Positions 26,470-39,270 of a stretch of DNA of 64,000 nucleotides are shown here, in pieces. Position 1 is the first letter of the stretch. Each line of letters opens with the position of its first letter. Below the pieces are notes generated by a model, which was given only the letters and a program-made list of their open reading frames with translations, was not told the DNA's origin and ran no database searches. Both the position numbers and the translations under genes were made by a program. The stretch comes from an uncultured Ruminococcus sp. GTDB lineage: Bacteria; Bacillota; Clostridia; Oscillospirales; Ruminococcaceae. The DNA is taken from NCBI GenBank assembly GCA_947624295.1, contig CANQJV010000002.1, positions 1 through 64,000 on the forward strand, written 5' to 3'.

Positions 26470-27279
26470 ATGAAGACAAAAAAGATAGTCATCGGAGCTA
26501 TGGCAGCAGCTATGCTCTCACTCTCAGTTTGCTCTCTCGCACCTGCTCTCGCAGCTGACGAAACAGTGCAGATATCCGTTGGAAATGCAACAGCAGAAGC
26601 AGGAGGTACATTTACGGTTGACGTGTCAATCGCAGATATTCCGGCTGAGGGTATCCAGTGTGCACAATTCTCACTCGATTTCGACAGCAGTGTCATCACA
26701 ATCGATTCTGTTGAGGAAGGCGCACTGATTAAGAGCGTTACAAGTGACCCTACAGCATCAGTTCTCCCCAGCTTTAACAGCTTCAAAGATAACAAAAACG
26801 GAAACCTGACATTTATGTGGGCAACTTCTATGGAAGAATCCGGTTACCTGCTGAAAGGTGAGGGCGTGTTCTGTACAATCACAGGCACTGTCGCAAAAGA
26901 TGCAAAGCCCGGAAAGTCCGAAATAAAAATAACTGCTACAAACCGTGAAACATTCACAGATTCAGGTGTTGTAAACGAGGATATTGACGTCGGCTACAAT
27001 AAAGGCGGCGAAAAAGTCAGATACAACGTTGAAGCTGTAAACGGTTCTGTAACTGTCAAGGGCGAAGATACTACAACCGGCAAAAAAGGCGATGCAAATT
27101 TCGACGGTGAAGTAAATATGGCTGATGTGGCTTCTATCATTCAGTATATCGGCAATAAGGATGCTTACAGTCTTACAGACCAAGGTATTGCAAATGCTGA
27201 TACTAATGATGACGGTCAAGTTACAGGTGAGGACGCTTATATTATCCAGCGTGTTCTTGCCGGTGAAATGGAACTCTGA
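26470..27279 (+). CDS. scaC: ScaC-like adaptor scaffoldin: single cohesin plus C-terminal dockerin
   Basis: Signal peptide; cohesin VQISVGNATAEAGGTFTVDVSIADIPAEGIQCAQFSLDFDSSVITIDSVEEGALI; dockerin KGDANFDGEVNMADVASIIQYIGN...NDDGQVTGEDAYIIQRVLAGE; first gene of a sca-type cluster. Confidence 0.8.
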   Translation: MKTKKIVIGAMAAAMLSLSVCSLAPALAADETVQISVGNATAEAGGTFTVDVSIADIPAEGIQCAQFSLDFDSSVITIDSVEEGALIKSVTSDPTASVLPSFNSFKDNKNGNLTFMWATSMEESGYLLKGEGVFCTITGTVAKDAKPGKSEIKITATNRETFTDSGVVNEDIDVGYNKGGEKVRYNVEAVNGSVTVKGEDTTTGKKGDANFDGEVNMADVASIIQYIGNKDAYSLTDQGIANADTNDDGQVTGEDAYIIQRVLAGEMEL

Positions 27280-27391: not shown

Positions 27392-29185
27392 ATGAAGAAA
27401 CTTATTTCTGCAGCTTCCGCACTCGCTATGGCTGCATCAATGGCAGGAGCAGTTATTCCTTTTACAACAGGAGCTGCTGACGCAACAAAAGGCTTTGAAC
27501 TCAGAGCTTTCACAAACAAGGCTGGCGAAGTTGTAAGCACAAACATCTCAACAGAAGAAATCAATGCCGGCGACGTTACTATCCCGATTGCTGTATACGT
27601 AAACGAAAAGACAAACGACTCTAAGTCTATCGTTGCACAGTGGACAGTTGACTCAAAAGACGGCGACGCTTCAAATGCAAATGTAACTTTCGCACCTATC
27701 ATCAGCGGTACACAGTATTTCGATTCACCTCGTACAGTAACTCTTGCTGATGGCTCAACTGTTGAAACAGATTTAACTATTGGTTTCAGCGGAACAATTA
27801 CAGCAGGTAAAAAAGGTACTACATTCGATGAATCATCTTCGAATTATGGATATAATACTGCTGACAAGCAGGTTTCATGGAATTGTCCTAATGCATGGGG
27901 TTCAGTTGTATGGGTAACACCTAACGGTGGCTATACATGGACAGGTGAAACTTCTGATGCTTTCCCGATTTTCGTATTTGAGGCTACATTCAAAAAGGGT
28001 ACACCGGCAGGTACATACTCAATTAACTTCCTTGAGGCAGTTGACGACTCAGGTGTTCCTGCAACATATTTCGAGGCTGGTACTCCTACAGTAAAGCACA
28101 CTGTTGAAAAGAAAAACATTGACCTTAAGGGCATTGACATCGTAATCGGCGATGCTGCAACTCCCGGAACAACAACAGCTACTCCTAAACCAATAACAAC
28201 TGCTCAGAATCCTCCTACAACAACAGCTGCAACAACAGCTGCTCCAAATCCTTCTACAACAACAATTTGGGCAGGCGAAGGCGAATTACAGCCTTCACCA
28301 ATCGTTACTGATGAACATGGTGTAGAGGAAGTAAATGACAAGTTTATCGTAAGAGGTAAAAAGTACACAGCTAAGCCCGGCGAAGACATAGAGGTTGCAT
28401 TTGAAGTTGATACAGGCGACAGCTATGTTTCAACAATGCGTACAGAATTTGCTGACCTTCCTGCTGGAATTACCGTTGAAATGAAAGACTTTACTTGCTA
28501 CGCTGATGCTGATTTGCATAAATGGGAATTTATGAATGGTTTCTCATATCAGATTAAAACTTTAACTAAGGCAGGAAACGACCCTGCAAAACTCCTTGAT
28601 AAAGATACAAGCGATGACCTTAACAACGATGTTATGCAGGTAATAGCACATATTCCTGATGACATTGCTCCCGGAACCTACAATATCGCAATGAAATTCT
28701 TCGAGGTATGTGAATATGGTCAGGTAACTGCTGACCACGAAATAAGCATGTTCAATGCTATCACATATCCGGCACAGATTGTTATTGAGGGCGATGCTCC
28801 GGGTACTACAACTGCTAAGAATCCTCCTGCAACAACAGCAGCTCCTACAACAGCAAAGGGCGATAATCCTACAACAGCTGCTCCAACAACAGCAAAGGGT
28901 GATACTCCTACAACAGCTGCTCCTAAGCCAACAGATAACGTTACAGGCACACCTCTCTATGGTGATACAAACTGCGACAAAGATGTAAATATTGCAGACG
29001 TTGTAGTTCTCAACAAGTGGCTCAACGATGCTAAATCCTACAACATTTCAGCACAGGGTAAACTCAATGCTGACTGCTGCGACGAAAAGGGTGGCGAAGG
29101 TCTCGACAAGAACGACTCTGATGCTATCATCAGAAGCATTGTTCACCTTGTTGAACTTCCGTGCACATCTGCTGACCTTAAGTAA
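27392..29185 (+). CDS. scaA: ScaA-like scaffoldin: two cohesin-like modules, Thr/Pro linkers, C-terminal dockerin
   Basis: Signal peptide; module 1 FELRAFTNKAGEVVSTNIS...; module 2 YTAKPGEDIEVAFEVDTGDSYVSTMRTEFADLPAGITVEMKD...; dockerin LYGDTNCDKDVNIADVVVLNKWLND... Confidence 0.78.
   Translation: MKKLISAASALAMAASMAGAVIPFTTGAADATKGFELRAFTNKAGEVVSTNISTEEINAGDVTIPIAVYVNEKTNDSKSIVAQWTVDSKDGDASNANVTFAPIISGTQYFDSPRTVTLADGSTVETDLTIGFSGTITAGKKGTTFDESSSNYGYNTADKQVSWNCPNAWGSVVWVTPNGGYTWTGETSDAFPIFVFEATFKKGTPAGTYSINFLEAVDDSGVPATYFEAGTPTVKHTVEKKNIDLKGIDIVIGDAATPGTTTATPKPITTAQNPPTTTAATTAAPNPSTTTIWAGEGELQPSPIVTDEHGVEEVNDKFIVRGKKYTAKPGEDIEVAFEVDTGDSYVSTMRTEFADLPAGITVEMKDFTCYADADLHKWEFMNGFSYQIKTLTKAGNDPAKLLDKDTSDDLNNDVMQVIAHIPDDIAPGTYNIAMKFFEVCEYGQVTADHEISMFNAITYPAQIVIEGDAPGTTTAKNPPATTAAPTTAKGDNPTTAAPTTAKGDTPTTAAPKPTDNVTGTPLYGDTNCDKDVNIADVVVLNKWLNDAKSYNISAQGKLNADCCDEKGGEGLDKNDSDAIIRSIVHLVELPCTSADLK
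28282..28800 (+). repeat. Cohesin cassette copy A, nearly identical to 29454-29972
   Basis: 519-bp segment starting gaattacagccttcacc; about 290 bp at its 3' end appears identical by eye to copy B. Confidence 0.9.
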
Positions 29186-29231: not shown

Positions 29232-32200
29232 ATGCACAACATGAAGAAACTGCTTGCGGCAGTTACGTCCATCGCTATGAGTTCTTCACTTGTAACGAGT
29301 GCATTTGCTACGTCTGTTACTGTTAGTGCTGCCGGCGGGTCGACCGCTGTGCAGCCTAACGTTAGTATGGGCGAGGTAATGGACGGAGCTGTCAATAAAA
29401 TTGCAGGACAATCTGATGATTTTCTTGTATTAAATAACAATAAAAAAGATGATGAATTACAGCCTTCACCAATTACTCCTGATGAACATGGTGTAGATGA
29501 AGTAAATGAAAACGTTGTCGTAAGAGGTGGAAAGTACACAGCTAAGCCCGGTGACGATTTAGAGGTTGCATTTGAAATTGATACAGGCGACAGCTATGTT
29601 TCAACAATGCGTACAGAATTTGCTGACCTTCCTGCTGGAATTACTGTTGAAATGAAAGATACGACCTGCTATGCTGATGCTGATTTGCATAAATGGGAAT
29701 TTATGAATGGTTTCTCATATCAGATTAAAACTTTAACTAAGGCAGGAAACGACCCTGCAAAACTCCTTGATAAAGATACAAGCGATGACCTTAACAACGA
29801 TGTTATGCAGGTAATAGCACATATTCCTGATGACATTGCTCCCGGAACCTACAATATCGCAATGAAATTCTTCGAGGTATGTGAATATGGTCAGGTAACT
29901 GCTGACCACGAAATAAGCATGTTCAATGCTATCACATATCCGGCACAGATTGTTATTGAGGGCGATGCTCCGGCTACTACTACGGCTCCTGCTCCAACAA
30001 CAGCTAAGACAGATACACCTACAACAACAAAGGCAGCATCACCTACAACAGTTACTACAGCTGCTCCTACAACTGCTGCACCACAACCATCAGCAACAAC
30101 TGCTCAGGTTACAAATTCGGTTAATCCTGCTGAAGGCAAGGCTGAATGGGTTATCCCTGAAGTAAATGCAAAGCCCGGCGATACTGTAGAAATGCAGGTT
30201 ATTGTAAACGGTGCGAGCGACCTTGCAGTTGCAGGTGCTTCATATAAAGTAACTGCTGATTCTCCTATTGAATTTTCAGGCGTAAGCGGTCAGTCGGCTG
30301 CATATGCTTCTGCTATCGTAAACAATGCGAAAACAAATGAATTTGCATTCGGAGAGGGCAAGGGTGCAGGTGTTACAGCTTCAGACAAGGCTGTTGTAAT
30401 GACTCTTACTTATAAGGTACCGGAAGGCACTCCCGGCGGAAAATATCCTGTAAAATGGTCCGATGCATTCATCAGCGACACAAACGGTCTTGAAATTACT
30501 TCAAAAGTAAAGCTCACAGATGGTGCTATTGTTGTTGAAGATGAAAAATTTGACGGTTCTATTGAATGGGATATTCCAGACAAGGTAAAGGCTAAACCCG
30601 GTGATACTGTAAAAATGGAAGTCGTTGTAAATGACCCAGACGGCGCAGGTCTCCCTGTAGCAGGTGCGCAGTTTGCAGTTGAGGCTGAATCTCCGATTGT
30701 ATTCACTTCAGTTGACGAAACATCTGCCGCTTATAAATCTGCAGTCGTAAACAATTCCAAAACAAATGAATTTGCATTCGGCGAAGGCAAGGGTGCAGGT
30801 GTTGCAGCTAAAAATGGCGACAATGTTCTTGTACTCACATATACAGTTCCCGAAGGAACACCCGGCGGTGAATATGCTGTAAATTGGGGTGGAGATATTT
30901 ATATTTCTGATACAAATGGCAATTCGCTTACAGACCAGATTAAACTCAGCAACGGTTCAATCCTTGTTGAAGATGAAAAGTTTGACGGCGAAATTGCATG
31001 GCAAATCCCTGAAGTTCACGCTAAACCCGGCGAAACTGTATCAATGGAAGTCAAAGTAAAAGACCCTGACGGCGCAGGACTTCCCGTAGCAGGTGCGCAG
31101 TTTGCAATCAATGCTAAGACTCCTATTGAATTTTCTAAGGTAAGTGACTCATCAGCAGGCTATACTGCTTCAATCGTAAACAACGCAAAGACAAATGAAT
31201 TTGCATTCGGCGAAGGCAAGGGTGCAGGCGTTGCAGCAAAAGACGGCGACGATGTTCTTGTGCTTACATATACAGTTCCTAACGGCACACCGGCAGGAAG
31301 ATACGATGTAACATGGGGCGGAGATGTCTATATTTCTGATACAAACGGAAATGCACTCACAGACCAGATTTCACTTATTGACGGTGCTATTATAGTTGAT
31401 GATACAACCGCAGAGGGCGACCTTACATGGACAATTCCAGAGGTTGAGGCTCAGCCGGGCGATACTGTTACAATGGACGTTCTCGTTACAGTAGGCGAGA
31501 AGAATCTCCCCGTAGCAGGTGCGCAGTTCGGTATTTCTGCTGAATCTCCTATCGGTTTCGGCGGTGTAAGCGGTACTTCTGAAGGCTATTCCGCATCAAT
31601 CGTAAACAATCCTGATACAAATGAATTTGCATTCGGTCATGCTAAGGGCGAGGGTATTGAGGCTGCTGACAAATCAAAAGTCCTCACACTCACATACAAA
31701 GTGCCTGATGACATTGAACCGGGCAGATATGATGTAAAGTGGTTCGCTGATAAGTTCGTAAGCGATACAAACGGCAATGACGTTACATCTTCTATAAAAT
31801 TTGTTGATGGTGCTATCATTATTCCTGAAAAGAAAACAACAGCAGCCACTACAGCTGCAACAACCACAGCTACTACAACATCAGCTACAGCTGCTCCTAC
31901 AACATCAGCTACAGCTGCTCCTACAACATCAGCTACAGCTGCTCCCACAACTCAGGCTACAACGGCAGCTCCTACAACAGCGGCTCCGGCTCCTACTACA
32001 ACAGCAGTTCCCGTAACTGCTCCTGAAGGCAAAATCCTTTGGGTTATCGATGAAGTAGATGCAGCTCCCGGAGATGAAGTTACTCTTAATGTGGTTGTAA
32101 ATGATTCAAATGGCGCAAATCTTCCTATCGGCGGTGCACAGTACATAATCAATGAAACAACACCTATTGAATTTGTAAGTGCTTCCGAAAAATCAGAAGG

Positions 32201-34439
32201 ATACGGTGCTGACATCATCTATAACCCTGAAACAGAAGAATTTGCATTTGCTAACGAAAAAGGCGCAGGTGTTTCTGCAAAAGACGGCGCAGTTGTTATG
32301 ACACTTACTTATAAAGTGCCTGAAGACTGCGAAGAAGGCAAATACCCTGTAACATTCGGCGACAGTGCATTCTTTAATATCTCATCAGCTGACGGTATTG
32401 ATATGTCCAACCAGATTCTTACAGTGGACGGCGCAATCAATGTCAAGAAACCTGTTACAACAGCTCCTCCGACAACAGCTGCAACAACAACAGCTGCTCC
32501 TACAACTCAGGCTACAACTCCTACCACAACACTTCCTCCTATTGCAGAAGGTTCAGTAATATGGCAGGGCGAAACTGTAAAGGCTGCTCCGGGCGAACAG
32601 GTTGAACTCAGCTTCCTCGTAATCGACCAGAAAGATTCAAAACTTCCTGTAGGCGGTGCAAACTTCGTTATTACTCCTGACGGCGGTATCAAACTCACAG
32701 GCGGTACAGGTTCAGAGGGATACGATGCAGATATCATTTACAATGAAGAAACAAGAGAATTTGCTTTTGCTCACGAAAAAGGCGTAGGCGTTGCTGCTCC
32801 TGACGGAAGCAAGGTAGTTACACTTACATTTGATGTTCCGGCTGACATCGCTCCCGGCAAATATCCTGTAACACTCAGCGACTTGTTCGCATCAGATACA
32901 AACGGATATGATATAACAAAGAATATTCTTGTTATGAACGGCGCAATCGAAGTTGAACTTCCTGTAACAACTACAGCATCTCCGAAACCTGTTACTACTA
33001 CAGCTTCACCAACTACAGCAGCTCCGAAACCTGTTACTACTACAATTGCAGACGGCGCAGTTATCTGGCAACTCGATGAGGCAGAAGGCAAACCCGGCGA
33101 AACAGTTACACTTACAATGACTGTTCTCGACCCGAACGACACTAAACTCGAAATCGGCGGCGGTCAGTTTGTAATCGTTACAGACCCTGACCTTGTTGCA
33201 GCAGCAGGTACACCTTACGGTGCATCTCTCGTATACAACCCTGAAACAAATGAGTTTGCTTTTGCTGATGCTAAAGGTAACGGCGTTCCTTCCGCTGACG
33301 GCACAAAGATGCTCACAATTGACTTTACAATTCCAGAGGACGCAGTTCCGGGTACAGAATATCCTGTTGATATTACACAAATCACTGCTATTAACGGCAA
33401 TGGTGACGACGTTACAAACAGCGTATTCGGTATGAGCGGTAAAATCAAGGTAATTGCTCCTGATGTTACAACTGCTGCGACAACACAAGCTACAACAGCT
33501 TCAGCTACAGCAACTCCGACAACATCAGCTACAGCAGCTCCAACAACAGCTTCAGCTACAGCAGCTCCAACAACATCAGCTACAGCAACTCCGACAACAT
33601 CAGCTACAGCTGCTCCGACTACTGCATCTACAGCAAAATCAACAACAAAATATGTAGCACCGGGCTCAGATACAAATACAACTGCAACTTCAAGCACACG
33701 TCCTACACTCATTACTCCTAATCCGGAGGTATCAGTAACTGTTATTGACGGTTTCTACTTCAACCACGATCCTAAGCCGTTCAAGACAGGTCATATCACA
33801 AGCATTGAAATGACAGATACAGAAGGTAAACCGATGACTCCTGATGAATCACTCTTCAGATTTGAGGAAGTTAATTCAAAGGCAGATAATCCTCAGGATG
33901 CTTATGACAAGGAAAATACTTCATTTGCTTATAAAGTAAATGTATATTACGGTGATGTACAGCTTGTTGATTCTACAACTGGCGAACCTGTACAGTTTAC
34001 AGCATACATCGGTGTAAAGGGCGATGCAGACCTTGATAATAAGGCAGATGCAACTGATGCTTCTAAGGTACTTGCATACTACTCAGCTATCTCAACAGGC
34101 GGTACAGGCGATGATACATGGCTTAATGACCCTGAAGTTAGTCCGAAATTTGCAGAAAATCCGATGCTTGACCAGCTCGGCGCATTCCTCGCTGACGTTG
34201 ACAAGGACGTATACAATGAGGACAACTGGAAGACAACTAAGACAGGCAGACAGATTATGGCTGACGACGCATCATTCATACTTGCTTATTATTCAATAGT
34301 ATCAACAGGTGAAGATGACCTCCAGAAAGCTTGGAACTCTGTTTTCGCTAACCCAGTTGAGGAAAAGAGCAGAGAGTATCTCTTTGACCAGTACGTAACC
34401 CTCGACAAATTTATTGAAGAACAACAAACTACAGAATAA
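29232..34439 (+). CDS. scaB: ScaB-like multi-cohesin scaffoldin with C-terminal X-dockerin (8 cohesin-like modules by eye)
   Basis: 1735 aa; one ScaA-type cohesin plus seven modules with NN(A/S)KTNEFAFGEGKGAGV-like motif; TTSATAAP linkers; X module + dockerin [35 protein letters not shown]. Confidence 0.85.
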   Translation: MHNMKKLLAAVTSIAMSSSLVTSAFATSVTVSAAGGSTAVQPNVSMGEVMDGAVNKIAGQSDDFLVLNNNKKDDELQPSPITPDEHGVDEVNENVVVRGGKYTAKPGDDLEVAFEIDTGDSYVSTMRTEFADLPAGITVEMKDTTCYADADLHKWEFMNGFSYQIKTLTKAGNDPAKLLDKDTSDDLNNDVMQVIAHIPDDIAPGTYNIAMKFFEVCEYGQVTADHEISMFNAITYPAQIVIEGDAPATTTAPAPTTAKTDTPTTTKAASPTTVTTAAPTTAAPQPSATTAQVTNSVNPAEGKAEWVIPEVNAKPGDTVEMQVIVNGASDLAVAGASYKVTADSPIEFSGVSGQSAAYASAIVNNAKTNEFAFGEGKGAGVTASDKAVVMTLTYKVPEGTPGGKYPVKWSDAFISDTNGLEITSKVKLTDGAIVVEDEKFDGSIEWDIPDKVKAKPGDTVKMEVVVNDPDGAGLPVAGAQFAVEAESPIVFTSVDETSAAYKSAVVNNSKTNEFAFGEGKGAGVAAKNGDNVLVLTYTVPEGTPGGEYAVNWGGDIYISDTNGNSLTDQIKLSNGSILVEDEKFDGEIAWQIPEVHAKPGETVSMEVKVKDPDGAGLPVAGAQFAINAKTPIEFSKVSDSSAGYTASIVNNAKTNEFAFGEGKGAGVAAKDGDDVLVLTYTVPNGTPAGRYDVTWGGDVYISDTNGNALTDQISLIDGAIIVDDTTAEGDLTWTIPEVEAQPGDTVTMDVLVTVGEKNLPVAGAQFGISAESPIGFGGVSGTSEGYSASIVNNPDTNEFAFGHAKGEGIEAADKSKVLTLTYKVPDDIEPGRYDVKWFADKFVSDTNGNDVTSSIKFVDGAIIIPEKKTTAATTAATTTATTTSATAAPTTSATAAPTTSATAAPTTQATTAAPTTAAPAPTTTAVPVTAPEGKILWVIDEVDAAPGDEVTLNVVVNDSNGANLPIGGAQYIINETTPIEFVSASEKSEGYGADIIYNPETEEFAFANEKGAGVSAKDGAVVMTLTYKVPEDCEEGKYPVTFGDSAFFNISSADGIDMSNQILTVDGAINVKKPVTTAPPTTAATTTAAPTTQATTPTTTLPPIAEGSVIWQGETVKAAPGEQVELSFLVIDQKDSKLPVGGANFVITPDGGIKLTGGTGSEGYDADIIYNEETREFAFAHEKGVGVAAPDGSKVVTLTFDVPADIAPGKYPVTLSDLFASDTNGYDITKNILVMNGAIEVELPVTTTASPKPVTTTASPTTAAPKPVTTTIADGAVIWQLDEAEGKPGETVTLTMTVLDPNDTKLEIGGGQFVIVTDPDLVAAAGTPYGASLVYNPETNEFAFADAKGNGVPSADGTKMLTIDFTIPEDAVPGTEYPVDITQITAINGNGDDVTNSVFGMSGKIKVIAPDVTTAATTQATTASATATPTTSATAAPTTASATAAPTTSATATPTTSATAAPTTASTAKSTTKYVAPGSDTNTTATSSTRPTLITPNPEVSVTVIDGFYFNHDPKPFKTGHITSIEMTDTEGKPMTPDESLFRFEEVNSKADNPQDAYDKENTSFAYKVNVYYGDVQLVDSTTGEPVQFTAYIGVKGDADLDNKADATDASKVLAYYSAISTGGTGDDTWLNDPEVSPKFAENPMLDQLGAFLADVDKDVYNEDNWKTTKTGRQIMADDASFILAYYSIVSTGEDDLQKAWNSVFANPVEEKSREYLFDQYVTLDKFIEEQQTTE
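29454..29972 (+). repeat. Cohesin cassette copy B, nearly identical to 28282-28800
   Basis: Same length (519 bp), same start and end sequence as copy A. Confidence 0.9.
30141..31830 (+). repeat. Four tandem cohesin modules (starts near 30141, 30561, 30987, 31416; about 420-429 bp period)
   Basis: Repeated (W)xIPEVxAKPGDTV...PVAGAQF...IVNNAKTNEFAFGEGKGAGV...ISDTNGNxLT. Confidence 0.85.
32031..33460 (+). repeat. Three further cohesin modules separated by Thr/Ala/Pro linkers (starts near 32031, 32551, 33051)
   Basis: ILWVIDEVDAAPGDEVTL / VIWQGETVKAAPGEQVEL / VIWQLDEAEGKPGETVTL with conserved YNPETxEFAFA. Confidence 0.85.
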
Positions 34440-34730: not shown

Positions 34731-34860
34731 GTAATTATGAATTTTTGGGCATGAGTATAGAAACTCTATATTCCATGTACAAAAAGATGTCTCATTGGTG
34801 TCTGAATCACAGGGATTTAGATAGATAATGAGAAAAAATATGTTAGAGAGGTATAGAACA

Positions 34861-37800
34861 ATGAAGAACTCATCATTATTCAAGAGAGCTTTTGCCACAG
34901 TTGCTACTGTTCCGCTTGCTCTCACACAATGCTTAGCTGTTGCTAACGCTGTAGATGTCGATAATGTCGCAGTTGTGTCATCAACAAAAGCAGCAGCACC
35001 GGCTGAAGACGTGATTTCTGTAGATACTATAATGTATATTGAACCTACAGAATCAGACAATGCAATGTACTACCTGGAAGATGGTAAGTATATTAAGGAT
35101 TCCTACTGGAATACTACAATAAGCAAATTCATTCAGCAGCTTAATGCAAAAGCACCAAATGGAACACTTGACCCGAAACCAATCTTTGAAAAGGTTATAA
35201 ACCGTGCCGGCGCATATGCTGACCTTGCACAGAAAGCCGCTGATAAAGTCAACGAAGCTACATATTCTGTTGATACAAACAACAATATTGTAGTAAATGC
35301 AACAATGGATGATATTGTCCCTGTATTTGAGGACTTTGCAAAAGAAAAAGTAGGTTCGGATCTTGACAAAATTGCTGATGAATACAATATGCCGGAACTT
35401 AAGACTGTTAAATTCTTTGACGGCGTTGAAATTGCAGGCAGTATCGAAATCGTAATTGATGCTTCTGAACTTAGCAATATCGAGGGAAAAACAATAAACG
35501 GTAAAATTTCTTTCACCGATAAGGCTACAGGTACTGTTTACAACGATGATGCAATCGCTGATTACTTCAAAAATAAGCTGAACGAGCTTAAAGATGCTGC
35601 AAGTTCAACTATCGAAAGCCTTAAGACAGATTACGATTTCACAGACGAGGAAATCGCAAAGCGTGTTGAGGAGTCTCAGGAATATAAGGACCTTTTCGCT
35701 AAAGTTAAAGACGGTTATCAGCCTGAAGACGGCGAAATTGAAAGCATGATTCTTGAGTCTGTTGAATTTAAGAACCTCGTAAATGATTACATGGCTGACC
35801 ACGGTGTTGATTACGCTGAGGCTGAATCAAAAATCAAGGAGTCTGAAGACTACCAGAACATGGTTGAAAGATTCACAAACGGTGTAAACCTTACAGACGC
35901 TGAAATCAAGGAGATTCTTAACGAATCAAGCGACTACAAAGACCTCGTTAATCAGTATATGGCTGATAATGCTGTTGACTATGATACTGCTGTTGATGAA
36001 GTCCTCAAGTCTGACGATTATCAGGCACTCCTCGACAAGTACACTGATATGTATACTTATACAGACGATGAAATCCACGAAATGATAAAAGGCTCTGCTG
36101 ATTATCAGGTAAAAATGGCTGAAATCAAGGCTGAATATGAGGATACATATTCTAAGATGGAAGCTAAGGCTGACGATGCACAGAAACAGCTTAATGACAT
36201 TGTAGGCAAAGCTCTCAGCTATATCGACAAAGGTCTTGAAAAATATACTGATATTAAGACTTATACCGGCAGCTATCAGTTCGATTCTTACTCTGATATG
36301 GCTGAAGCAATCAATAATAATGTTCTCTTTAAGAGAGCTGTTGATACCGCAAAGGACAAACTTCCGGATAAGTATGCTTCAAAAGTTCCGGAGAAAGTTC
36401 CGACAGACCTCAGCAAAGTTTCAGGCAATAATAAGGTTCAGGAGATTTTCGCTGAAATCATCAATCAGCTTGGTGCAAAACTTCCGGGCTATGAAGTAAA
36501 CGTTACTCCTGAAGAACTTACTGATATTGTTGAATCATGCACTGATATTGAAATTACAGCAAATGCAGGTCTTGTAACATTCACAGGAATACTTCCTGAT
36601 GAGGATGTAAACAATGATAATATAGATGCTGCAACTTATATTGAGAATACATATGGTGTTGAAGTATCTGATATTGACGGAGATGGCAAAGCTGTTTATA
36701 AAGAGGCTGATATTACTCTTGATTTCACTAACCTTGATACAGATGGCAATGCATCTGTTGAATTCCAGCTTAAGAGAGTAGTTGAGGCTAAAAAACCAGA
36801 TGAAACAACAACTGCAATAACTGCTACAAGTACAGAAACTGAAACAGGTACAGGTACTGAAACAGTTACAACTGCTACAGGCAGCGAAACAGAAACAGGC
36901 ACAGGCACTGAAACAGAAACAGGTACAGGCACTGAAACAGTTACAACTGCTACAGGCAGCGAAACAGAAACAGGCACAGGTACAGGCACTGAAACAGTTA
37001 CAACTGCTACAGGCAGCGAAACAGAAACAGGCACAGGCACTGAAACAGAAACAGGTACAGGTACAGGCTCTGAAACAGAAACAGTAACAACTGCTACAGG
37101 CAGCGAAACAGAAACAGGTACAGGCACAGGCACCGGCACTGAAACAGGTACAGGTACAGGCTCTGAAACAGAAACAGTAACAACTGCTACAGGCAGCGAA
37201 ACAGGTACAGGCACAGGTACAGAAACTGGCACAGGCACAACATCAAGCATTGAAATCGTAGGTACTACAACAGTAACCGTAGAATACACTGTAAGAGATG
37301 TTGAAGTTGAATCTGTTGACGCATTCTACCTCACAATCGATAAGACATTCAACAAGAATCAGGTTCTCTCGGTTAAATATGACGTAGTTATCAGCGAAAT
37401 AACTGTTGACGAGGCAGACCAGATTATATCCAAGATTGACAATACAGTTGCAGGCACACTCACTGCTGACCAGTTCGACTTTGACGGCACACCTGCTGAA
37501 GTTTACAACGGCAATGCAGAAGGTATCGATAAGTTCATTTATGATGTTGCACTCGTTGCAGCAGAAGATATCACTGTTGACGATGTAGTTATCTTCAACG
37601 CTGGCGATGTTATCAAGTCTGATAACACAATCGCTCCTACAGTTACAGCTTACATCGGCGTAAAGGGCGATGCAGACCTTGACGGTAAAGCTGATTCATC
37701 AGACGCATCTGTAATCCTTGCATGGTATTCAAAGGCATCAACAGGTCAGACAGACGCTGCATTCTCAATCAGTGAACTCGTAGTTAACGCAGAAACAGGC

Positions 37801-38043
37801 GAAATTATCAACGCAACACTTGACAGATTCGCAGCATTCCTCTCAGACGTTGACAATGAAAACGACCCTGATAACTGGAAAGAATCAAAGGCTAAGACAG
37901 ACAGAAAAGTTGGTGCTGATGATGCCTCATTCGTTCTTGCTTGCTATTCAACAATGTCAACAACTGCTACTGATGAAAAATATGCATCAAGAGAAGTATG
38001 GAATGAAATCCTTGGCGAAGCATATGCTAAAATAGAAGACTAA
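34861..38043 (+). CDS. cttA: CttA-like non-catalytic cell-surface protein: N-terminal modules, helical repeat insert, Thr/Gly/Glu minisatellite linker, C-terminal X-dockerin
   Basis: ATG at 34861 preferred over 34828 (RBS gagagg); position between scaB-like and scaE-like genes; XDoc [37 protein letters not shown]... Confidence 0.7.
35630..36215 (+). repeat. Protein-level helical repeat of about 26-31 aa, roughly 6 units
   Basis: [16 protein letters not shown] / [30 protein letters not shown] / [17 protein letters not shown] / [30 protein letters not shown] / [17 protein letters not shown] / [13 protein letters not shown]. Confidence 0.75.
36831..37240 (+). repeat. Minisatellite encoding a (TETGTGTE)/(TVTTATGSE) linker
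   Basis: Repeated acaggcacaggcactgaaacagaaaca / gttacaactgctacaggcagcgaa. Confidence 0.9.
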
Positions 38044-38142: not shown

Positions 38143-39270
38143 ATGAAAAAGATTTACTTAAAGAAAGTATGTTCTGCAGTTGCTCTCTCAGCAGTTGCTG
38201 CATCAATGGCTTCAATGACATCTTTTGCTGCTGTAAGCAACGTTAATAATCTTAATGCACAGGATTATATGGACGGTGCTATGAACGGTTTCACACAGGA
38301 AGAAATCGATGCATCTACAGTAAAACCAGTTGTTACTGTTACAAGAGCAATCCTTACTCCTGATGCAGCTGGCACTACACAGACAGTTGAAATTTCTGTT
38401 TCAGGCGCACAGCAGAAGTATGCTTCATCCGGTCTCCATGTTTACTTTGATTCACGTCTCACACTTAACTCAACTCCTATCGGTACTCCTGATATTGAAC
38501 AGGGCGACGGAACTAAATATCTTACAGTTGACTCTCCTACACTTGACCCTACAGCTTCAGAACAGGGAATGAGCGGTGTATTTATGTGTTCAGCTGCTAA
38601 GCAGGATTTTGGTGTAGACGGTGTTATGTGGAAAATCAACTTTACAGTTCCTTCTGATGCTGCTGCTGGTGATGTATATCCTATCGACATTTTCTATAAG
38701 TCAAAGCCAGCTGCTGAAGACCTTTTCAACAACGCTGCAAAGACAGAGGAAGGTCAGTTAATGCAGGCTTACTTCTTCACAAGAAGTATCAACAACGGCG
38801 TAACAAGTAGCTTCGAATATACTGACGAAGAAACTGCAAAGTGTGCTGCTATCGCTGAACTTGATGCAAGTACAGACGGTTACATTGCTATCGAGGACGG
38901 CGCACCTGTAACAACAACAGCTACAACAGCTACTCCTACAACAACTGCTACATCTACAACAACTACAAAAGCACCAACAACAGCTACAGCTGCTCCGACA
39001 ACAGCAACAGCTGCTCCGACAACAGCTACAGGTACAGGTACAAATGCTACAGGCTCAGTTTCAACATCTACAGAGAGTGGTACAAATAACGATACAGGTA
39101 CAACAAGCAAGACTACAGTATCAACTACTGCAAAACCGTCTTCAACAACTAAGCCAAGCGGTGATGGTAAGGATTCACCTAAGACCGGTGTTGCTGGCGT
39201 TGGCATTGCAGTTGCAGGTCTCGCTGTAGCTATCGGTACTGCTTTCGTTCTCAGAAAGAAAGAGGACTAA
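38143..39270 (+). CDS. scaE: ScaE-like cell-wall-anchored scaffoldin: single cohesin, Thr-rich linker, sortase-type sorting signal
   Basis: Signal peptide; cohesin-like VVTVTRAILTPDAAGTTQTVEISVSGAQQKYASSGLHVYFDSRLTLN; C-terminal DSPKTGVAGVGIAVAGLAVAIGTAFVLRKKED. Confidence 0.82.
   Translation: MKKIYLKKVCSAVALSAVAASMASMTSFAAVSNVNNLNAQDYMDGAMNGFTQEEIDASTVKPVVTVTRAILTPDAAGTTQTVEISVSGAQQKYASSGLHVYFDSRLTLNSTPIGTPDIEQGDGTKYLTVDSPTLDPTASEQGMSGVFMCSAAKQDFGVDGVMWKINFTVPSDAAAGDVYPIDIFYKSKPAAEDLFNNAAKTEEGQLMQAYFFTRSINNGVTSSFEYTDEETAKCAAIAELDASTDGYIAIEDGAPVTTTATTATPTTTATSTTTTKAPTTATAAPTTATAAPTTATGTGTNATGSVSTSTESGTNNDTGTTSKTTVSTTAKPSSTTKPSGDGKDSPKTGVAGVGIAVAGLAVAIGTAFVLRKKED

Follow-up and report, generated by a model that had tools for sequence, protein, structure and literature searches.

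The window analysed here, a stretch of 64,000 nucleotides from an uncultured Ruminococcus sp., contains an adhesin-like gene whose product carries an array of helical repeats between its two N-terminal modules, and it raises the question of where such an array comes from and what it might do for the protein. On sequence grounds the protein is identified as CttA, a putative cellulose binder, because its last 250 residues match the X-dockerin structure of Ruminococcus flavefaciens CttA (PDB 4iu2, 4wkz) and its first 250 match the CttAs of strains FD-1 (locus L052, 1e-23) and 007C (locus L051, 2e-29). The gene lies between scaB and scaE; the C-terminal X-dockerin is of the CttA/ScaB type; and the two homologous N-terminal modules are both alignable across 59 orthologs. 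X-dockerin, modules and gene order thus agree with the initial annotation, which had named the protein CttA-like; the extent that it gave, ending at 37250, takes in the array and leaves out the X-dockerin at approximately 37264–38022. CttA, described as CBM-CBM-X-Doc (PMC5301203), links the cell to the fibre in cellulosome systems of the R. flavefaciens type.

The cttA gene sits in a complete sca cluster (Table 1), and CttA probably docks on ScaE in the window species, the gene for this partner being both adjacent and homologous. In the protein at the scaA position the C-terminal dockerin is the sole recognisable part, and Pfam detects no cohesin in it. The N-terminal modules of CttA matched no Pfam family and, by sequence, no solved structure; for a possible origin of module 2 by internal duplication of module 1, a profile comparison of the two gave a probability of 14%, although they share a similar order of elements. 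The Pfam family “CttA_N” (PF18244) matches the X module of ScaB (residues 1507–1575) and not the CttA N-terminus here, so its name is misleading. A leader (window 34828–34900; 21 residues) precedes the signal peptide and is approximately 80% identical among CttAs of the array clade; this conservation indicates a probable translation start ahead of the usual signal-peptide methionine, and the leader is a possible export signature of CttA. The Thr/Gly/Glu-rich linker is encoded at window 36806–37241 by nested tandem repeats of 6, 57 and 93 nt, and stretches of N interrupt it in two related genome assemblies (G094 and G006).

Table 1. Features of the cttA locus in the window, with two CttA loci of related genomes.
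Feature	Position	Strand	Remarks
Cohesin-dockerin protein	26470–27279		in the sca cluster
Protein at scaA position	27392–29185		ends in ScaA-type dockerin (PDB 5n5p_B, E = 7e-20)
scaB-like scaffoldin	29232–34439	+	seven Pfam cohesin stretches and X-dockerin
cttA CDS	34828–38043	+	ORF, 1071 aa; X-dockerin matches PDB 4iu2/4wkz; N-terminal region matches CttA of G002 (FD-1) and G011 (007C)
N-terminal leader and signal-peptide region	34828–34959	+	residues 1–44; 80% identical among array carriers
Module 1, putative cellulose-binding module, alpha/beta	34999–35562	+	residues 58–245; AlphaFold2; homologous region in all orthologs
Connector helix A	35548–35631	+	residues 241–268; AlphaFold2 model residues 197–224
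Array unit 1	35632–35715	+	residues 269–296
Array unit 2	35716–35805	+	residues 297–326; most conserved unit
Array unit 3	35806–35883	+	residues 327–352; units 2 and 3 form superunit 1
Array unit 4	35884–35973	+	residues 353–382
Array unit 5	35974–36051	+	residues 383–408; units 4 and 5 form superunit 2
Array unit 6	36052–36135	+	residues 409–436; second helix continues into helix B
Long return helix B, 54 residues	36097–36258	+	residues 424–477; AlphaFold2 model residues 380–433
Module 2, putative cellulose-binding module, alpha/beta	36262–36792	+	residues 479–655; AlphaFold2; homologous region in all orthologs
Thr/Gly/Glu-rich repetitive linker	36793–37263	+	residues 656–812; tandem repeats
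X module and dockerin	37264–38022	+	residues 813–1065; PDB 4iu2_B, E = 6e-13
scaE, wall-anchored cohesin	38143–39270	+	PDB 8ajy_A, E = 2e-38; NPXTG signal; expected docking partner of CttA
CttA locus L066, apparent mosaic			G073:C61
CttA locus L070			G123:C9; X-dockerin 80% identical to that of G073

The array occupies residues 269–436 (nt 35632–36135) and consists of six helical-hairpin units of 28, 30, 26, 30, 26 and 28 aa, with an exact period of 28 aa and a superperiod of 56 aa. In a BLOSUM autocorrelation of the region, lags 56, 28 and 84 stand out (z = 11.6, 7.9 and 6.4 against 2000 shuffles; observed values 1.64, 0.73 and 0.73 vs. shuffle maxima of 0.17, −0.01 and 0.24), with nothing comparable at the neighbouring lags tested; at the DNA level, one 16-mer recurs at spacings of 168, 168 and 84 nt. 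The pattern of a unit is a short helix, a helix-breaking serine (23 of 24 units), a tyrosine or phenylalanine three residues on, and a second helix. Units 2+3 and units 4+5 are two copies of a 56-aa superunit, approximately 39% identical in the window, and units 1 and 6 are the diverged ends of the array. The array is strongly acidic (47 acidic vs. 16 basic residues) and contains no tryptophan.

Structure prediction suggests that this array is ordered and folds as a unit of its own. An AlphaFold2 model of the N-terminal half (residues 45–656, 59 sequences) has a mean pLDDT of 88 and a pTM of 0.73, and runs from an alpha/beta module through helix A, six hairpins and helix B to a second alpha/beta module; predicted alone from four sequences, the array gives twelve helices with a pLDDT of 92 and a pTM of 0.81. 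Helix B is approximately 26 residues longer than helix A, which would fit a return helix running alongside the array. The roughly six helical repeat units of the initial annotation are thus borne out, at 26–30 aa each and with their 28-aa period established by autocorrelation and shuffling; the disordered stretch without periodicity that would have refuted it is contradicted by the predicted order and clear periodicity; and the flanking segments that it called beta-rich are present, although the model makes them alpha/beta rather than simply beta-rich.

The array was first described as an insertion between the N-terminal modules, and here the comparison with other CttAs leads to a different view. 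We measured the length of the connector in the orthologs of the genus, taking fixed points in modules 1 and 2 as anchors (one further row was cut by unknown bases). In 53 orthologs the connector is 96–140 residues long and mostly helix-forming; the connector of the four array carriers has 297–303 (299 aa with six hairpin units in the window CttA), and two further CttAs, of G006 and G040, have 162 and 230. Because all other measured CttAs already have a helical connector at this place, the array is not an insertion between adjacent modules but an outgrowth of the turn of the connector helix pair. As judged from sequence, the short-form connector would be an antiparallel hairpin of two helices of approximately 28 residues joined by a short turn; in that case, the array would project outward and the modules would not be moved apart.

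Searches for known families and folds indicate that the array is apparently an undescribed helical-repeat domain in a variant of CttA. It has no significant match in Pfam, NCBIfam or PDB sequences, and the Foldseek searches that the initial annotation had proposed returned nothing significant in PDB or BFVD (best E = 0.64 for the N-terminal half against PDB, 1.3 for the array against PDB and 1.4 for the array against BFVD). The alpha-solenoid families TPR, Sel1, HEAT and ARM were set aside on the same fold search and for want of any curated profile match. PDB 9k9w, the top row of the profile search (whole-sequence E = 0.0015), was discounted, since no single stretch of it fell below an i-E of 45. 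The YKDL(V/I) motif of the array, which we take to resemble the albumin-binding GA module, led no further: the Pfam profile of GA is absent among the 18 families reported up to E = 1 for the window array. The core of GerD (PDB 4o8w) gave a non-significant profile match (E = 0.022 over approximately 60 residues), and Foldseek, run with the single-chain array against PDB, did not return it. A literature search, with thin coverage of subscription journals, found no paper that joins cellulosomes, Ruminococcus and the phrase “helical repeat”.

The array is rare, and its history can be partly read from its units. Among 125 genomes of the genus, four carry it (G000, G073, G094 and G096; E = 1e-103 to 3e-44); in each case it lies in CttA and has six units. 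The next match (E = 0.006) is an unrelated short ORF. As many of the genomes are incomplete, 4 of 125 is a lower bound, and G123, whose contig ends inside the linker, may carry the array too. When 398 genomes from the family and 396 from the order were searched by profile, only the window's own copy reached a meaningful score, and the array was not found in plasmid and phage collections. A superunit match in G054 (E = 2e-4, 27 residues) was rejected, the protein not being CttA-like and the stretch too short to mean anything. Each unit is closest to the unit at the same position in the other species (0.40–0.71 on the diagonal vs. 0.24–0.37 off it), so the four CttAs diverged after the six-unit array had formed. 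A close relative, G006, has a single hybrid unit and lacks exactly 140 = 5 × 28 residues; as a tree of modules 1+2 without the connector places it inside the array carriers and rejects a grouping of the carriers apart from it (AU p = 0.0007), loss of five units in phase is likelier than an ancestral state in G006.

The CttA of a second carrier, G073, looks like a mosaic, with the N-terminal half of the array clade and the X-dockerin of its own species lineage. Its modules 1+2 group with the array clade, and a tree that holds it with G045/G046, its kin by IF-2, is rejected (AU p = 0.001); module 1 by itself gives p = 0.006, and module 2 by itself p = 0.15, which is not decisive. Its X-dockerin groups instead with G123 (80% identical) and G045/G046, placement in the array clade being rejected (p = 0.0001), and the IF-2 marker agrees with the position of the X-dockerin. 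These trees are to be read with the caveats that the groupings were chosen after earlier trees had been seen, that branches are long and the assemblies draft, that IF-2 is a single marker, and that the base composition is uneven. The simplest reading is that recombination, perhaps in the Thr-rich linker, moved the substrate-facing half together with the array between lineages while the local X-dockerin was kept.

Among the four carriers the array is the best-conserved part of mature CttA, with a mean pairwise identity of 56%, compared with 41% for module 1, 42% for module 2, 27–31% for the connector helices and 47% for the X-dockerin. Core positions, assigned from the hydrophobic pattern of the repeat and not from coordinates, are more conserved than surface positions in every unit, and conservation peaks in the core and at the helix caps. 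At the surface, units 2, 3 and 5 have identities of 0.61, 0.56 and 0.48, vs. 0.30 and 0.24 for units 1 and 4.

We propose, with confidence that is evenly balanced, that the array is mainly structural and forms a rigid arm projecting beyond the putative cellulose-binding modules. It would have arisen by tandem duplication of a 28-aa hairpin, in 56-aa superunits, at the turn of the connector; the chain would pass from module 1 through helix A, six hairpins and the 54-residue helix B to module 2; and the arm would be displayed on a protein that ScaE tethers to the wall, its main job being to brace and lengthen the arm and thereby to set the stance of the modules towards the fibre. The proposal draws support from an array that is periodic, is ordered alone, extends the connector, is better conserved than the modules and most so at core and caps, and changes in length by whole units (G006), and from the different lengthening of this connector in G040. 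Since both of its ends lie on the connector, it is probably a stiff, acidic arm beyond the modules that does not lengthen the path between them; of the rigid spacer suggested at the outset, the rigidity is favoured, whereas simple separation of the modules is unlikely if the connector is an antiparallel hairpin. The periodicity, the distribution, the placement against the orthologs, the conservation and the predicted helices are observations; we infer the antiparallel geometry, the projection, the docking on ScaE in the window species and the function. Against such an arm stand the surface conservation of units 2 and 3, which is above the protein average and more than a plain strut needs; the constancy of six units in all four carriers, where a length-setting element might vary more; the fact that G006 manages with one unit; and the failure of Foldseek to return any similar strut.

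The main rival, which we regard as a real though lesser possibility, is a ligand-binding module. CttA would then have a second target, with the conserved faces of units 2 and 3 attaching to lignin, a polysaccharide, another protein or the surface of a host or bacterium. In its favour, no other part of the mature protein is as conserved as the array, the conserved surface lies mainly in units 2, 3 and 5, and the N-terminal half that bears the array was apparently exchanged between lineages when the X-dockerin was not. However, the array has no tryptophan and no significant similarity to any binding family, its strongest conservation lies in core and caps, it is present in only 4 of 125 genomes, and helix B could equally well be what the conserved faces pack against. 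For the more specific suggestion of a carbohydrate-binding module we found no pointer, given the lack of tryptophan, the strong acidity and the conservation at core and caps, and a role in binding stands as the rival in its general form. A particular version of it, which we consider slightly less likely still, would make the array a new helical-repeat binding domain with its face on units 2–3, held beyond the modules of a wall-docked adhesin and exchanged with the substrate-facing half of CttA while a local X-dockerin fitting the local ScaE was kept; if so, this small group of ruminococci would gain an extra adhesion target. Chance duplication of a hairpin in a tolerant connector, without a job of its own, is improbable: the connector is indeed variable in length, with five units lost in G006 and an unrelated extension of it in G040, but an array that is ordered and conserved disfavours neutral expansion, its identity exceeding that of the modules and the X-dockerin, its six units standing in register in four diverged CttAs, and its fold being predicted with confidence. 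Least probable of all, to the point of being a long shot, is an oligomerisation element that bundles copies of CttA at the surface for multivalent adhesion, in the manner of the superhelical rope that GerD forms; the GerD profile match, with its shared rhythm of short helices broken before a tyrosine, is what recommends it, but that match is not significant, GerD is missing from the Foldseek results, and a confident prediction folds the array as a monomer.

Whether arm or binding face, the domain that tops the CttA connector is specific to its lineage, strongly conserved and well ordered, and it is a helical repeat without a match in PDB. The one-unit variant of G006 and the many zero-unit variants are natural controls, so that the role of adhesin architecture is directly testable. 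Moreover, the mosaic of G073 suggests that the half of CttA that faces the substrate and the half that faces the cell are each exchanged without the other.

Among known systems, the closest are the CttAs of R. flavefaciens FD-1, 17 and 007C, which share with the window protein the scaB-cttA-scaE order, the N-terminal modules, the helical connector, the repetitive linker and the X-dockerin (PMC5301203, PMC3672088). Two of them could be identified in our genome set: the X-dockerin of G002 shows 100% identity to that of R. flavefaciens CttA in structure 4iu2, and the cttA of G011 lies where PMC3672088 places the gene of strain 007C, the 007C protein being 98% identical to the CttA of strain 17. 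They differ from the window CttA in a connector of approximately 103–105 aa without repeats, measured as 103 residues in FD-1 and 105 in 007C and, for strain 17, deduced from its identity to 007C; as the initial annotation had it, characterised CttAs lack the array. The CttA of G040 (L053) shares with the window protein the lengthening of the same connector, achieved there by a heptad-like coiled-coil sequence without 28-aa units and thus as an independent solution, so length or projection at this site recurs. TPR, Sel1, HEAT and ARM proteins resemble the array in being built of tandem two-helix units, from which the array differs by its 28-aa period and its lack of a Pfam match; and the GerD core resembles it in rhythm over some 60 residues, while giving no fold match and belonging to a different biology.
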